64,000 bases of DNA from the NCBI RefSeq assembly GCF_015222005.1, contig NZ_JADFFL010000002.1, positions 372,001 to 436,000 on the forward strand, read 5' to 3'. A program made the translations under genes and the position numbers. The notes below the pieces were generated by a model that worked only from the letters and a program-made list of their open reading frames with translations, was not told where the DNA came from and searched no databases. Below, in pieces: positions 7,148-12,833 of this stretch (position 1 is the stretch's first letter; each line of letters starts with the position of its first letter). The DNA comes from Mucilaginibacter myungsuensis. Its GTDB lineage: Bacteria; Bacteroidota; Bacteroidia; Sphingobacteriales; Sphingobacteriaceae.

Positions 7148-8692
7148 GTGATACAAATAGGACAAAGCGCGCTTTCTCTCGACGATCTATCCGCTATTAT
7201 ATTTAACAAACAACAGGTTGCCATTGATCCGGCGGCTTTGGATAAGGTAAATGCCAATTTCGATTTCCTTAAACAGTTCTCGTCCAACAAGCTGATATAC
7301 GGTATCAATACCGGTTTTGGGCCGATGGCGCAATATAAGGTAAGCGAAGAGAACCTGTTGCAACTGCAGTATAACCTCATTCGCAGCCACTCATCGGGCA
7401 GCGGTAATATGATGGACGCGCTATTGGTGAAAGCCTTGATGATCGCCCGTTTGAACAGCTTTATGCAAGCGCACTCTGGTGTGCATAGCGATGTAATAGA
7501 ACTATTGCGGCAGCTGATCAATAATGATATAGCGCCTTGCATATTTGAGCACGGCGGCGTAGGCGCCAGCGGCGACTTGGTGCAATTGGCCCACTTAGGC
7601 CTGGTACTGATCGGCGAGGGTGAGGTGATCTACAAGGGTGAACTGCACCCAACGATGGATATCTTCAATAAGTTCGGTATTAAGCCGCTGAGCATCCATA
7701 TCCGCGAGGGTTTAGCTATTATCAACGGTACTTCGGCTATGACGGGTATCGGCATGGTGAACATCATCCGTGCACGTAAACTGTTGAGCTGGTCTGTCAT
7801 GTTATCGGCCATGATCAACGAGGTAGTGCAGGCTTTTGATGATCATTACTCTTACGAGCTGAACATCGTTAAACACCACAAAGGGCAGAACAAGATAGCC
7901 GAAATGATGCGCGGCGTACTAAAGGACAGCAAAATGATCCGCGACCGTTCGGAGCACCTTTACAATCCCGACAATCTGGATCAGGAAGTGTTTGAGGATA
8001 AGGTGCAAGAATATTACTCGTTACGTTGTGTAACGCAGGTTTTGGGCCCGATCATGGATACCATCAACTACGCGCAGGAAGTGGTGGTGAACGAGATAAA
8101 CTCGGTTAATGATAACCCGGTAATCGACCATGTGAACGAGAATATCTTCCATGGTGGTAACTTCCATGGCGATTACGTGTCGCTGGAAATGGATAAGTTG
8201 AAGATAGCGATCACTAAATTATCGATGCTATCTGAGCGTCAACTGAATTACATGCTGAACAGTAAGCTGAACGGTAAGTTCCCGCCATTTGTGAATTTGG
8301 GTGTGCTTGGCTTCAATTTCGGCGTACAGGGGATGCAGTTCACCGCGGTATCTACTGTGGCCGAGAACCAAACCTTGTCGTTCCCGATGTATGTGCATAG
8401 CATCCCTAACAATAACGATAACCAAGATATTGTGAGCATGGGTACCAACGCGGCGCTGATCGCTAAAAAAGTGATCGATAATTCGTTCGAGGTGTTGGCT
8501 ATCCAAATGGTGACCATCCTGCAAGCCATCGATTATTTAGGTTGCCAGGAGAAACTGTCATCAGCATCGCACAAGGTTTACGAGACCTTTAGGGCCATCT
8601 TCCCTAAATTTGTGGAGGACGCGCCAAGATATAAGCAAACAAAAGCCGTAAAAGACCATTTAGAGAACGCGGACCTTGTGATCCCTTTCTAA
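7148..8692 (+). CDS. Aromatic amino acid ammonia-lyase, tyrosine ammonia-lyase type
   Basis: A 514-residue HAL/PAL/TAL-family lyase that removes ammonia from an aromatic amino acid; with tyrosine this gives 4-coumarate. The self-cyclising Ala140-Ser141-Gly142 triad that forms the MIO electrophile is in GGVGASGDLVQL, and the substrate-contact loop reads YGINTGFGPMAQY. From memory, the selectivity segment NLIRSHSSGSG and many flanking stretches (such as SIPNNNDNQDIVSMGTN) closely match the Flavobacterium johnsoniae tyrosine ammonia-lyase rather than classical histidine ammonia-lyase. No hut genes are nearby, and two ketosynthase pairs follow, which fits supply of an aryl starter unit. The start is GTG. 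A ketosynthase gene begins 12 bases after the stop. Confidence 0.88.
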   Translation: MIQIGQSALSLDDLSAIIFNKQQVAIDPAALDKVNANFDFLKQFSSNKLIYGINTGFGPMAQYKVSEENLLQLQYNLIRSHSSGSGNMMDALLVKALMIARLNSFMQAHSGVHSDVIELLRQLINNDIAPCIFEHGGVGASGDLVQLAHLGLVLIGEGEVIYKGELHPTMDIFNKFGIKPLSIHIREGLAIINGTSAMTGIGMVNIIRARKLLSWSVMLSAMINEVVQAFDDHYSYELNIVKHHKGQNKIAEMMRGVLKDSKMIRDRSEHLYNPDNLDQEVFEDKVQEYYSLRCVTQVLGPIMDTINYAQEVVVNEINSVNDNPVIDHVNENIFHGGNFHGDYVSLEMDKLKIAITKLSMLSERQLNYMLNSKLNGKFPPFVNLGVLGFNFGVQGMQFTAVSTVAENQTLSFPMYVHSIPNNNDNQDIVSMGTNAALIAKKVIDNSFEVLAIQMVTILQAIDYLGCQEKLSSASHKVYETFRAIFPKFVEDAPRYKQTKAVKDHLENADLVIPF

Positions 8693-8704
8693 ATTGATAG
8701 CTTA

Positions 8705-9853
8705 ATGATGGCAAATGCTCCGGATATCATCCCCGATGTTTATGTGGTGGCCGACAATATCCTGTCGCCCATTGGGAGCACTACGGTCGAGAATTTAGCA
8801 TCATTACAAACCGGCGTTTCGGGAGTTAAGGCTCAAAGTCGACCCGCTATTTCGAACGAAAGTTTTGTTGCCTCGCTGTTCGATGACGAGCAGATTAAGG
8901 TCATCGACAAAAGTTATACAAGATTTGAAAGTCTATTAGTTTCATCTATAACAGATGCGTTAAGTGGTTTAGGCGAAAATTTCCTAAACGAAAAGACGGG
9001 TCTAATTATATCATCCACCAAAGGCAATATCGATCTGCTGGAGACCGAGGCGCATAACGACGAACTGAATCAACGCATTGCTCTGCATACTTCAGCACAG
9101 ATCGTTGCCGATTGTTTTAGAATCAAAGCTAAACCGGTGGTACTATCCAATGCCTGCATTTCGGGCGTGATGGCTATCCTTACAGGTTTAAGAATGATCA
9201 GATCGGGACAATATGATCAGGTGATCGTTACCGGGGCGGATGTCATTTCTAAATTTGTGTACTCGGGCTTCAAGTCATTCCAGGCATTAAGTGCCGAGGT
9301 TTGCAAACCATTCGATAAAGACCGCGCCGGCCTGAATTTGGGTGAAGGCGCCGCTACCGTCATCCTGTCAAAAAATAAACTGAGTGATAGCGATGTGAAA
9401 GTGAGCAGCGGAGCGATCAGTAACGATGCTAATCACATCTCTGGTCCGTCACGTACAGGGCATGAGTTGGGTTTTGCTATTAAGAAAGCATTGCTGGATG
9501 CGGGTATTGCATCTAACGATATCGGCTACATTTCCGCCCATGGCACGGCTACTAATTATAATGACGAGATGGAAGCCAACGCGATCAACTTCGCGGGTTT
9601 GCAACGCGTACCGCTGAATAGTTTAAAACCTTATTATGGTCACACACTTGGTGCGGCGGGATTGATCGAGTCGATCATTGCCATACACGCCATTAAGACC
9701 GGACAAATATTCTCAAGCCTTGGTTATACAGAAAGTGGCGTGACCCAAACAGTAAATGTGGTGACTGAATTGACGAATACAAATATTACGCATGCGCTCA
9801 AAACCGCATCGGGTTTTGGGGGTTGTAATGCAGCAATGGTTTTTAGCAAGTAA
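8705..9853 (+). CDS. Beta-ketoacyl-ACP synthase, first KS of the aryl-polyene-like operon
   Basis: A 382-residue FabF-like condensing enzyme (type II polyketide/fatty acid synthase logic: decarboxylative Claisen condensation of malonyl-ACP). The nucleophile is Cys151 in SNACISGVM. The two catalytic histidines are in SAHGTATNYND and YYGHTLGAAG, so the Cys-His-His triad is complete. The C-terminus has the expected glycine-rich SGFGGCNAAMVF. It is about 30 residues shorter than E. coli FabF. The next gene starts 1 base after its stop, arguing for translational coupling to a chain-length-factor-like partner. Confidence 0.9.
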   Translation: MMANAPDIIPDVYVVADNILSPIGSTTVENLASLQTGVSGVKAQSRPAISNESFVASLFDDEQIKVIDKSYTRFESLLVSSITDALSGLGENFLNEKTGLIISSTKGNIDLLETEAHNDELNQRIALHTSAQIVADCFRIKAKPVVLSNACISGVMAILTGLRMIRSGQYDQVIVTGADVISKFVYSGFKSFQALSAEVCKPFDKDRAGLNLGEGAATVILSKNKLSDSDVKVSSGAISNDANHISGPSRTGHELGFAIKKALLDAGIASNDIGYISAHGTATNYNDEMEANAINFAGLQRVPLNSLKPYYGHTLGAAGLIESIIAIHAIKTGQIFSSLGYTESGVTQTVNVVTELTNTNITHALKTASGFGGCNAAMVFSK

Positions 9854-9854
9854 T

Positions 9855-10454
9855 ATGTCGGCACCTAAATATATTACCAGCGCTTGCATCATCAGCAATG
9901 ATACCGTCACCCTAAATGGGGAACAGTCTTTTGCGGGCGATAACAGTGGGGTGGATAGTTTTTTGCTGTCGGTCTATCAGCATTTTCAGCTCAGCTACCC
10001 AAAGTTTCATAAGATGGACAGGTTAAGCAAACTGGGCTGGTTGGCTGCCGAATTGCTGTTACAAAATTTTGACAGCGCCTATTATCAACCCGAGCAGGTG
10101 GGCACGGTGCTGGCCAATGCCAACTCCAGTCTGGATATGGATCTGAAGTATTACGATAGCATCAGCGATGTGCCAAGTCCCTCGCTGTTCGTTTACACGC
10201 TGCCCAATATCGTAGCCGGCGAGATCTGTATCCGTCATCATTTTAAAGGAGAAAATGCTTTTTTTGTACAACCAAAGTTTGATGCGGAATTTATCCAGGG
10301 GCAGGTTGACCAATTATTGGATCAGAACATCCTGCAAGCCTGTATTTGCGGCTGGGTAGATGTTTTGGGACAGGCCTACGAGGCTAAGTTGTATTTAGTA
10401 GAGAAAATTAAAAAGGATAATGCCGTGGAGTTTGCGGCAGATCAAATGAAATAA
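9855..10454 (+). CDS. Short ketosynthase-like chain-length-factor protein (Ketoacyl-synt_2 type)
   Basis: A 199-residue protein resembling the N-terminal half of a ketosynthase. The recognisable parts are YITSACIIS at the start, MDRLSKLGWLAAELLL, VGTVLANANSSLDMD and PSLFVYTLPNIVAGEICIRHHF. The segment that would carry the catalytic Cys reads GENAFFVQPKFDAEF and has none, so it cannot be a condensing enzyme alone. Proteins of this size and pattern occur in aryl-polyene and flexirubin clusters, where they are thought to partner a full ketosynthase and limit chain length. ATG 9855 is chosen because it follows the previous stop by one base. The 118-base gap after it contains a large hairpin repeat. 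Confidence 0.72.
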   Translation: MSAPKYITSACIISNDTVTLNGEQSFAGDNSGVDSFLLSVYQHFQLSYPKFHKMDRLSKLGWLAAELLLQNFDSAYYQPEQVGTVLANANSSLDMDLKYYDSISDVPSPSLFVYTLPNIVAGEICIRHHFKGENAFFVQPKFDAEFIQGQVDQLLDQNILQACICGWVDVLGQAYEAKLYLVEKIKKDNAVEFAADQMK

Positions 10455-10462
10455 ATAAAAGT

Positions 10463-10562
10463 TTGTCATCCTGAGGAACGAAGGACCTTCTTCAATATGC
10501 TTTTCGAATAAGCAGGTTCGCTAAGCGGTGTGGTGAAGGTCCTTCGTTCCTCAGGATAACAA
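10463..10562. repeat. 28-bp inverted repeat with 44-base loop inside the KS operon
   Basis: The arm at 10463-10490 (core CATCCTGAGGAACGAAGGAC) and the arm at 10535-10562 (core GTCCTTCGTTCCTCAGGAT) are inverted copies with one mismatch in 28. The element fills almost the whole gap between the first chain-length-factor gene and the second ketosynthase. It resembles the dispersed palindromic repeats of Bacteroidota genomes, and no transposase is present. Confidence 0.85.
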
Positions 10563-10572
10563 TTGGTTTAAT

Positions 10573-11772
10573 ATGAGCGCACCGGTTTACATAGCAGGTT
10601 TAGGAGTAATATCAGCAATTGGTAACAATGTGGCCGACCACCTCGTCGCGTTCAAAAATGAACAGGCAGGTATGGGCGATATCACCCTTTTTGATAGCAT
10701 CCATAAAGGTAATTTGCCCGTTGCTGAGGTGAAGTTGAGTAACACTGAACTTCGCGACCTTACCGGCATGCCGCCTGAGACCAGCAGGACAACCTTGTTG
10801 AGTTTAGTAGCTGCAAAAGAGGCCATTGCCGATGCGGCGATCCCCGACCTGAAGAACTTGCGAACCGGTTTTGTATCGGCCAACACCGTTGGTGGCATGG
10901 ACCGCAGCGAAGATTTTTTTATAGACTTTTTAGCTGATAACAATAAGGGTAAACTAAAGAACGTGTACGACCACGAGTGTGGTAGCATTACCGAAGCCGT
11001 TGCCGTTGAGCTTGGTCTCACAGACCTGATGACCACCATCAGCACAGCCTGTTCATCATCGGCTAATGCTATATTTTACGGTGCGAGGCTGATCCGGAAT
11101 GGACTGGCTGACGTGATCGTTGCCGGCGGCGCCGATTCGCTGACCAAGTTTACGCTCAATGGGTTTAATACGCTGATGATCCTGGACAAGGAATTTTGCA
11201 AACCCTTTGACCAGAACCGTGAAGGATTGAATTTAGGGGAGGGTGCGGGTTACGTTGTGCTGGTTTCAGACGCAGTAGTGGCGACTTTGAATAAAGAACC
11301 ATACTGCCTGCTTAGCGGCTATCAAAACAGTAACGACGCTTACCATCAAACGGCATCATCGCCGGACGGTACAGGATCTTACATGGCGATGCAGGGCGCG
11401 TTGAAAAGAGCCGGTCTTCAAACATCGGACATAGACTACATCAACGTACACGGTACTGGTACGCCTAATAATGATGGCGCTGAGGGGACAGCCATCAAAC
11501 GCTTGTTCGGGCCGGAGTATCCGCCGTTGAGTTCTACCAAATCCTTTACCGGGCATACGCTTGGTGGTAGCGGTGGCGTAGAAGCGGTGTTTAGCGCGCT
11601 GGCTATCAAAAATAAGATCATTTGTCCTAATCTCCGTTTCCAAACACAGATGGAAGACCTGCCTTTTGCGCCGGTCACCAAATATCTGGAGGGGCAGCAA
11701 GTGAACCACGTCATGTCCAATTCGTTCGGTTTTGGCGGTAATTGTACATCATTAATTTTCTCTAAGATATAA
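10573..11772 (+). CDS. Beta-ketoacyl-ACP synthase, second KS of the operon (FabF-like)
   Basis: A 399-residue complete condensing enzyme. The triad is Cys160 in STACSSSANAI, His293 in NVHGTGTPNND and His328 in SFTGHTLGGSGG, and the C-terminal SNSFGFGGNCTSLIF motif is intact. It is about as long as FabF and probably extends an ACP-bound chain made from the lyase product. The last base of its TAA stop is the first base of the next gene's ATG (TAATG), the usual arrangement for a ketosynthase alpha/beta heterodimer made in equal amounts. The ATG is 10 bases after the hairpin repeat. Confidence 0.92.
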   Translation: MSAPVYIAGLGVISAIGNNVADHLVAFKNEQAGMGDITLFDSIHKGNLPVAEVKLSNTELRDLTGMPPETSRTTLLSLVAAKEAIADAAIPDLKNLRTGFVSANTVGGMDRSEDFFIDFLADNNKGKLKNVYDHECGSITEAVAVELGLTDLMTTISTACSSSANAIFYGARLIRNGLADVIVAGGADSLTKFTLNGFNTLMILDKEFCKPFDQNREGLNLGEGAGYVVLVSDAVVATLNKEPYCLLSGYQNSNDAYHQTASSPDGTGSYMAMQGALKRAGLQTSDIDYINVHGTGTPNNDGAEGTAIKRLFGPEYPPLSSTKSFTGHTLGGSGGVEAVFSALAIKNKIICPNLRFQTQMEDLPFAPVTKYLEGQQVNHVMSNSFGFGGNCTSLIFSKI

Positions 11773-12833
11773 TGAAGGCTTACATTCGTTCCGCTTCTGC
11801 CATATCGGCCCAACATACTTTTGGTGACCAGCCTTTCCTGACCAACATCGTTGAGTACACAGGCAATTGGTTAAAACCTATCGAGCCTGACTATAAAGCC
11901 TACATCGATCCTAAACTGATCCGCCGGATGAGCCACGTCATCAAGATGGGATTGGCTACCGCTTTGGATTGTTTACAACAAGCTAAACTGGATCAACCAG
12001 ACGCGATCATCACCGGAACCGCGATGGGCATTATGGAGGATACGGTCTCTTTCCTGACCCGCATTGTGGAGATGCAGGAAGAGATGCTGTCGCCAACGGC
12101 ATTTATCCAGTCTACGCACAATACCGTGGCGGCACAGATCGCTCTATCGCTTAAATGCCATAACTATAACAATACGTTTGTGCATAAAGGCGTGTCTTTC
12201 GAAAACGCTGTGTTGGACGCTTTGATGCTTATTAACGAGGGTGAGGCGAGAGATGTTTTAGTTGGCGGTATTGATGAAATGGTGGATGTCAGCTATAAAG
12301 TACTTACCCGTTTGGGGCTGTACAAGCGTAAGGAAATATCGAATCTGTATCTGTTCAAAGAAAAGTCTAAAGGGACCATCGGCAGCGAAGGCGCAAGCTT
12401 TTTTGTATTGAGCGATAAGCCTGGCGATGTACTTGCCGAACTGACCGCATTAAAAACATTCTTTGATCAGGATACAACTTTAGACCCGGCACCTGCTATC
12501 ACTAAGTTTTTAGCAGAGAATGGTCTTACCATTGACGATATTGATCTGGTGATCACCGGCAAAAATGGCGACATTAACAATGATGCGCCTTATGATAAAC
12601 TAAAAGTTGGTCTATTCCAAAATACCGAATGTGTCAACTATAAACACCTGAGTGGTGAGTATCCCACCTCATCGGGTTTTGCCCTTTGGGTGGCGGCAAA
12701 TATCATCGGCAAACAAATAGTGCCTACTGTTTTATTAGAGGACCAACGCAAAATACCCGCACCTAAAAAAGTGCTGATCTATAACCGATACCAAAACAGG
12801 TATCATTCCCTGATGCTGGTATCGGCCTGCTGA
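11772..12833 (+). CDS. Ketosynthase-like chain length factor lacking the catalytic Cys
   Basis: A 353-residue KS-fold protein overlapping the previous gene by one base. Aligned by eye with that KS, the nucleophile position is Gly140 (FVHKGVSFENAV instead of the TACSSSANAI type). The first catalytic His is also gone (ITGKNGDINND where the partner has VHGTGTPNND). The second His appears kept in NYKHLSGEYPTSSGF. Loss of the nucleophile with retention of the fold is what chain length factors show, so I infer a heterodimer with the KS just upstream. The operon ends here; purD converges 22 bases later. Confidence 0.85.
   Translation: MKAYIRSASAISAQHTFGDQPFLTNIVEYTGNWLKPIEPDYKAYIDPKLIRRMSHVIKMGLATALDCLQQAKLDQPDAIITGTAMGIMEDTVSFLTRIVEMQEEMLSPTAFIQSTHNTVAAQIALSLKCHNYNNTFVHKGVSFENAVLDALMLINEGEARDVLVGGIDEMVDVSYKVLTRLGLYKRKEISNLYLFKEKSKGTIGSEGASFFVLSDKPGDVLAELTALKTFFDQDTTLDPAPAITKFLAENGLTIDDIDLVITGKNGDINNDAPYDKLKVGLFQNTECVNYKHLSGEYPTSSGFALWVAANIIGKQIVPTVLLEDQRKIPAPKKVLIYNRYQNRYHSLMLVSAC

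Follow-up and report, generated by a model that had tools for sequence, protein, structure and literature searches.

We analysed a five-gene cassette of Mucilaginibacter myungsuensis that looks like part of a pathway for a flexirubin-type pigment. It occupies positions 7148-12833 of a 64,000-nucleotide stretch, hereafter the window, which corresponds to C2:372001-436000 (C2, C3 and C6 denote contigs) in a genome of 5.09 Mb that is 99.97% complete and assembled into 23 contigs. The five intact open reading frames (ORFs) lie on the same strand with an operon-like spacing of 12, 1, 118 and -1 bp. The first encodes a tyrosine ammonia-lyase of the FlxA type, which would supply a 4-coumarate starter, and the other four encode proteins of the ketosynthase (KS) fold. 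No acyl carrier protein (ACP), ketoreductase (KR), dehydratase (DH), ligase or exporter was seen among the cassette ORFs of at least 70 aa. The original prediction, made from the letters of the window, held that only a lyase and four KS-fold genes stand together here, and ORF, family, alignment and structure checks confirmed this. It was likewise right that unrelated genes lie on both sides, namely a putative glycoside hydrolase of the GxGYxYP family on the minus strand to the left and a convergent purD to the right.

Each active ketosynthase adjoins a KS-fold partner without the active-site Cys, KS3 being next to KS4 and KS1 next to a short protein (structures were modelled as single chains). 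Among sequences of known structure, KS3 matches ApeO (6qsp_A, 9e-55), with several FabF chains scoring higher; the best match of KS4 is weak (6qsp_B, 1.9e-5) and is presumably the ApeC chain of the ApeO-ApeC entry. The short gene, whose likely start at 9855 was read from the sequence, has no Pfam or NCBIfam match and no PDB match by sequence. Its structural model (mean pLDDT 87.7) resembles both KS and chain-length factor (CLF) folds, among them 7f28_C, a chain of 198 residues (TMt 0.52), with VIA-align Z values of 12.9 to 15.9 across the best 50 matches. In the predicted structures, the short protein and KS4 thus both adopt the ketosynthase/CLF fold. The earlier notion of two KS/CLF pairs holds as to fold in these models, with the partners probably pairing as neighbors. 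Going by gene order, KS1, the short protein, KS3 and KS4 would be FlxI, FlxL, FlxN and FlxO, respectively.

Parts absent from the cassette were found elsewhere in the genome (Table 1). FlxY, the 4-coumarate ligase, and an adjoining holo-ACP synthase lie on contig C6, 37 kb from a dialkylresorcinol block on the same contig, and a KR-DH-DH cassette lies on C3. Within the block, NCBIfam models identify DarB (619.9 bits, cut-off 550), DarH (438.5, cut-off 300) and a flexirubin-type DarG (189, cut-off 170), and the ACP at C6:76287 matches PF00550 (37.7, cut-off 20.8). Pfam cut-offs were also passed by the ABC ATPase (PF00005), the ABC-2 permease (PF12698), the KR (short-chain dehydrogenase/reductase [SDR] families) and the 121-aa FabZ-like protein of the C3 cassette (PF07977, 31.9, cut-off 23); an additional Pfam scan of 17 proteins agreed with the names given to the ABC, ACP, KR, MMPL and glycosyltransferase proteins. 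The lyase is the sole match of its kind in the genome, and a further complete cluster carrying another lyase, the case that had been named as speaking against the original prediction, was not found in this search. The prediction had also left two explanations standing, a pathway split over several loci and a reduced, different one. It is the split that the parts found elsewhere support, and the reduced pathway is not needed. Among the gene kinds it had suggested looking for, ACPs, FabZ-like genes and a CoA ligase (FlxY) are present, and the MMPL exporter gave no match. We put a probability of about 0.85 on the reading, made from sequence, that the cassette is the starter and elongation piece of a flexirubin pathway dispersed over four loci, with a replaced reduction module.

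Table 1. Features of the cassette in the window and of the candidate pathway loci on contigs C3 and C6
Feature	Coordinates	Strand	Evidence or remarks
Tyrosine ammonia-lyase, FlxA type	7148..8692	+	NCBIfam NF053541 858.6 bits (cut-off 700); PF00221
KS1, ketosynthase with Cys-His-His	8705..9853	+	PF00109/PF02801; catalytic residues by alignment
Short KS-fold protein without active Cys, mini chain-length factor	9855..10454	+	predicted structure
Palindrome like repetitive extragenic palindromes (REP-like), between the two KS/CLF pairs	arms 10465-10490, 10535-10560	.	folding, arm search
KS3, ketosynthase with Cys-His-His, ApeO-like	10573..11772	+	PF00109/PF02801; alignment
KS4, KS fold without active Cys, chain-length factor	11772..12833	+	PF13723; predicted fold
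KR-DH-DH cassette: FabG-like KR, 140-aa protein, 121-aa FabZ-like protein	C3:350666-352206
FlxY, 4-coumarate ligase	C6:27750-29018		NF053551 648.4 bits (cut-off 520)
Holo-ACP synthase (AcpS), a phosphopantetheinyl transferase (PPTase)	C6:29019; pair with FlxY spans C6:27750-29393		adjoins FlxY
Dialkylresorcinol block	C6:66383-76553		order: PPTase, ACP-like, KS, FabZ-like, SDR, 161-aa gene, DarA-like, DarB, DarG, DarH, ABC ATPase, ABC-2 permease, ACP
PPTase	C6:66383		start of the resorcinol block
DarB and DarA	C6:70681-72735

Comparison with relatives places this layout in context. We used two overlapping samples that are not independent, 50 named loci and 149 genomes of the genus, and each count below belongs to its own sample; the named loci closest to the window lyase are mostly from Mucilaginibacter. 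The nearest relative, G008, whose lyase is 88% identical, has counterparts of all these genes in one contiguous stretch, and every gene of that cluster has a counterpart somewhere in the M. myungsuensis genome. G036, with a lyase identity of 87%, carries the same genes in three places on one 6.04-Mb contig. A DDE transposase lies about 2 kb from the FlxY/AcpS pair of G036 (L097:11088-12623) and is a possible agent of dispersal there; no transposase was found among the nine flanking genes scanned in M. myungsuensis. Contig ends are an unlikely cause of the separation for two of the loci: on its contig of 824,747 bases, the window locus is separated by at least 379 kb from both ends, and the C3 cassette, on a contig of 760,351 bases, has about 350 kb to the closer one. 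The FlxY locus lies 28 kb from a contig end.

The C3 module stands out by its divergence. Relative to G008, the lyase and FlxY are 88% identical in protein sequence and the four KS-fold proteins 68-81%; the corresponding values for the C3 module are 67% for the KR, 51% for the 140-aa protein and 40% for the 121-aa protein. In a lyase tree, M. myungsuensis, G008 and G036 form a clade (support 100/99). In a combined KR and DH tree of 47 loci (those of 53 FabG-matching loci that also had a DH match, which excluded L095), G008 and G036 fall into a clade of in-operon copies (96/90), and the M. myungsuensis cassette joins unlinked cassettes and copies that belong to large aryl-polyene clusters (92/98). 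Forcing the M. myungsuensis KR and DH together with those of G008 and G036 was rejected by an approximately unbiased test (p-AU 0.002). These sequence comparisons suggest that another aryl-polyene lineage supplied the reduction/dehydration module in place of the original one.

This situation is not confined to one genome. The gene after the lyase is FabG in 24 of 32 measurable compact loci; a dehydratase-like gene usually comes next, and a FabZ-like gene follows KS4. On the lyase tree, the missing in-operon KR requires six changes among nine other loci, at least five of them forced by starred branches. We read these changes as losses; the labels, assigned by hand from locus gene lists, do not by themselves distinguish loss from gain. 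Of the 149 genomes surveyed (E 1e-75, up to 18 candidates scored per genome), 85 carry both genes, and in 11 of these the single KR match at the threshold is located apart from the lyase; dispersal tallies of this kind are upper bounds, as 'other contig' may conceal neighbors in fragmented assemblies. Five of the other ten genomes carry a KR-DH-FabZ cassette like that of M. myungsuensis. In the remaining five, the KR sits beside an MMPL protein and further large-cluster genes in a stretch without a lyase, one such stretch ending inside the KR; the MMPL protein was found by search in four and by Pfam in G106, with one internal stop codon in G086. These large clusters are L087, L090, L091, L093 and L095 (genomes G075, G086, G113, G147 and G106), each genome having one lyase match elsewhere. 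In two of them, a single protein fuses the MMPL exporter to an acyltransferase and a methyltransferase domain (L087:8754-12542 and L095:1210-5061).

Truncated remains of an in-operon KR lie between the lyase and the next gene in two loci, L022 (gap after 6239) and L027 (gap after 9716), and in one of the two the KR has run together with the end of the DH. By their coordinates, these loci look like parts of G106 and G147, which have a stop-free KR match elsewhere, cut by the contig end in G106. These fossils lend support to a possible order in which the second copy is present first and the in-operon copy then decays, an order that is our own reading. We lean slightly toward the broader view that the reduction/dehydration module is exchangeable in the genus, a second aryl-polyene lineage repeatedly taking over and the flexirubin cluster then losing its own copy.

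The strongest competing account of the C3 cassette is that it serves another pathway and that the flexirubin loci borrow housekeeping FabG and FabZ. It would fit the unlinked position of the cassette, the mere 67% identity of its FabG to the in-operon copy of G008 and the presence of a weaker FabG relative at C6:321823 (45%). However, the cassette holds counterparts of the three genes that flank or interrupt the operon in relatives and are absent from the window operon, the sole KR match lies away from the lyase in the 11 lyase genomes described above, and the in-operon KR is a truncated fossil in two relatives. We consider this account unlikely.

Even less probable is a reduced, different aryl-starter pathway, in which the cassette would work with housekeeping ACP, FabG and FabZ to make a short or unreduced aryl polyketide. 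The bare cassette, without ACP, KR, DH, ligase or exporter, gives that impression, and nine further loci in the lyase tree likewise have no intact FabG following the lyase. Against it stand FlxY, the flexirubin-type DarG, DarB, DarH and the ACPs in the same genome, and the reduced pathway was ruled out as first choice once these missing parts had been found. The co-occurrence of the genes across the genus also speaks against it: of the 149 genomes, 91 have the lyase, 77 DarB, 87 the divergent KR, 88 FlxY and 67 the full set of four. Lyase and KR occur together in 85 genomes, 56 have neither and 8 only one of the two. The corresponding numbers are 87, 57 and 5 for lyase and FlxY, and 74, 55 and 20 for lyase and DarB. 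For the six pairwise associations, Fisher p ranges from 1e-17 to 4e-35 (uncorrected for relatedness), and the six lyase genomes without a KR are 58 to 84% complete. Of the 91 lyase genomes, 33 have DarB, KR and FlxY all at most 30 kb away from the lyase, and G000 is the only one that has all three others and none of them that close.

The dispersed genes also look intact. The M. myungsuensis lyase, KR, FlxY and DarB matches contain no internal stop, and the other parts are open frames. Most synonymous differences per site (pS) were near saturation, which left the nonsynonymous value (pN) alone for use in place of a dN/dS ratio. Against G008 and G036, pN is 0.06 to 0.21 for the lyase, the KS genes, FlxY, AcpS, DarA and DarB, with pS of 0.63 to 0.82; the KR, compared with G008 and G063, falls into the same pN range. 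That the locus is a decaying remnant of a broken-up pathway whose pigment is no longer made, as the dispersal itself, the absent in-operon KR and DH and the palindrome inside the operon might suggest, is thus very improbable given these intact frames, the mainly synonymous substitutions (the two dehydratase-like genes excepted) and the full set of counterparts to the G008 cluster.

The sequences themselves show gene content, co-occurrence, intact frames, tree placement and, for proteins above a named cut-off, family membership. If the four loci act together as a dispersed flexirubin pathway, the following scheme, from enzyme activities and joint action to ester and export steps, product and order of events, is what we infer. 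The window lyase would deaminate tyrosine to 4-coumarate, which FlxY would activate and an ACP would carry, two ACP genes lying in C6:67009-76553 and the PPTases at C6:29019 and C6:66383 charging their products. KS3/KS4 and KS1 with the mini-CLF would add malonyl units, and in each round the FabG-like reductase and the two FabZ-like proteins from C3 would convert the keto group to a double bond. DarB and DarA would make the dialkylresorcinol, DarH probably forming the ester, and export would run through the ABC ATPase and permease beside the Dar genes instead of an MMPL pump. A single ancestral cluster would have dispersed, and a divergent cassette, akin to the one in large aryl-polyene clusters, would have taken the place of its KR/DH module. 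Since the four pieces showed no gene for a methyltransferase, an MMPL protein or a LolA-like protein (of the three, only MMPL had a genome-wide search), the product may tentatively be an unmethylated, ABC-exported hydroxyphenyl polyene ester. The cassette is ordinary in its likely chemistry and unusual in its layout.

Several observations weigh against this picture of a dispersed flexirubin pathway with a replaced module. DarA has no family match and was named from its position and its counterparts in relatives only, the ACP-like gene at C6:67009 has no Pfam match and stays below NCBIfam cut-offs, and the 140-aa dehydratase-like protein has a weak FabZ match (28.8 versus a 113-bit cut-off) and none in Pfam. 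Both dehydratase-like genes have pN values of 0.28 to 0.43 with pS near saturation, which does not show selection on them. The MMPL exporter has no match in the M. myungsuensis genome at 1e-10; 10 of the 15 other genomes searched likewise gave no match, so that 5 of all 16 match, the query's own included. The LpxL-like acyltransferase of the larger clusters also gave no match in the M. myungsuensis genome, in a search without a positive-control genome. DarB is below threshold in 17 lyase-bearing genomes, which means that lyase and resorcinol genes are not inseparable. A shared promoter motif was not found: the sense strands of six upstream regions contained no strict match to a Bacteroidetes-type pattern, and the two loose matches both lie in the C6 block. 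Finally, the support of 92/98 in the KR and DH tree is just under the starred level and the M. myungsuensis branch is long, and placing its KR and DH anywhere in the whole in-operon clade was not rejected (p-AU 0.066).

The gap between the two KS/CLF pairs holds a 96-bp palindrome (10465-10560), and the region 10455-10580 folds at -63.3 kcal/mol (z -11.3). With up to 3 mismatches allowed, the arm sequence recurs nowhere in the window beyond these two copies. Across compact clusters (compact loci among L010-L058, plus L085 and L086), 22 of the 59 junctions that border the short KS gene have a hairpin-bearing gap, versus 6 of 129 other junctions, counting gaps of at least 50 nt with a folding energy of -15 or lower, not normalised for gap length. 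The enrichment (Fisher p 3e-8) is uncorrected for relatedness or gap length, and the repeated arm sequences vary between lineages. The palindrome might be a scar, a sign of tolerance, or a hairpin setting the expression of the two KS pairs. In large clusters, the short gene and KS3 are separated by an ACP. Scars of departed genes can be a partial explanation only, since the FabG-DH and DH-KS1 junctions are mostly tight even though the large clusters hold extra genes there.

Ketosynthases are not limited to these loci. A ketosynthase model matched eight places in the genome, and the match at C6:67260-68534 lies within the resorcinol block. A small locus resembling a fatty acid synthase (C3:93338-98945; L064 6338-11945) comprises an acyltransferase, a hydrolase, a PPTase, two SDRs and a KS. 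A different locus (C6:108808-115284; L061 12808-19284) encodes a hybrid protein of 2158 aa that combines adenylation, carrier, ketosynthase, acyltransferase and aminotransferase domains. It is followed, on into L062, by a further large ORF that by eye resembles a nonribosomal peptide synthetase.

Dispersal as such is already known, Chitinophaga pinensis having two loci and Azoarcus sp. BH72 two unlinked ones, and the four pieces described here are an extension. According to the report on C. pinensis (PMC3992019), that organism has flxA-flxY plus darA/darB, with polyene and resorcinol genes at two loci, and the activities of FlxA and FlxY have been demonstrated. M. myungsuensis shares with it the FlxA lyase, the FlxY ligase, several KS genes, KR, DH and DarA/DarB; it differs in having four loci, in that neither an MMPL-type exporter nor an LpxL-like acyltransferase was matched, and in a KR and DH that apparently belong to another lineage and lie away from the lyase. 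The Flavobacterium johnsoniae cluster contains the same kinds of genes, darA and darB included, in a single 37-kb stretch, according to the same paper (PMC3992019). For the arcuflavin of Azoarcus sp. BH72, the published account (PMC3949708) describes two unlinked polyene loci, insertion mutants in either being colorless. Its polyene loci are unlinked, as here, and its dar locus also has an ABC ATP-binding gene, together with a BtrH-like gene; in contrast, its starter is hydroxybenzoate from chorismate, not coumarate from tyrosine. The pairing of an active KS with a shortened KS-fold partner recalls ApeO-ApeC (PMC8358021; PDB 6QSP), but here there are two pairs, with KS4 only weakly similar to 6qsp_B and the short protein without a PDB sequence match. 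Unlike the large aryl-polyene clusters, M. myungsuensis has no match to their MMPL exporter. We recognised no treatment of split flexirubin loci in this genus in the literature searched, most subscription journals lying outside its coverage.

Mining for pigment clusters relies on adjacency, and a five-gene operon such as this would probably be read as an incomplete or new pathway; here the gene set looks complete, only divided among four places. That the in-operon KR is repeatedly absent, with a divergent copy kept elsewhere, offers a natural experiment on whether type II polyene synthases tolerate an exchange of reduction modules, and it predicts a possible mutual dependence of two unlinked clusters. 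If the exchange we favor is real, some genomes of the genus would contain a pair of interlocked clusters, the first carrying the sole lyase but no KR and the second the sole such KR but no lyase, and in genomes such as that of M. myungsuensis the second lineage would have left only a small KR-DH-DH cassette.

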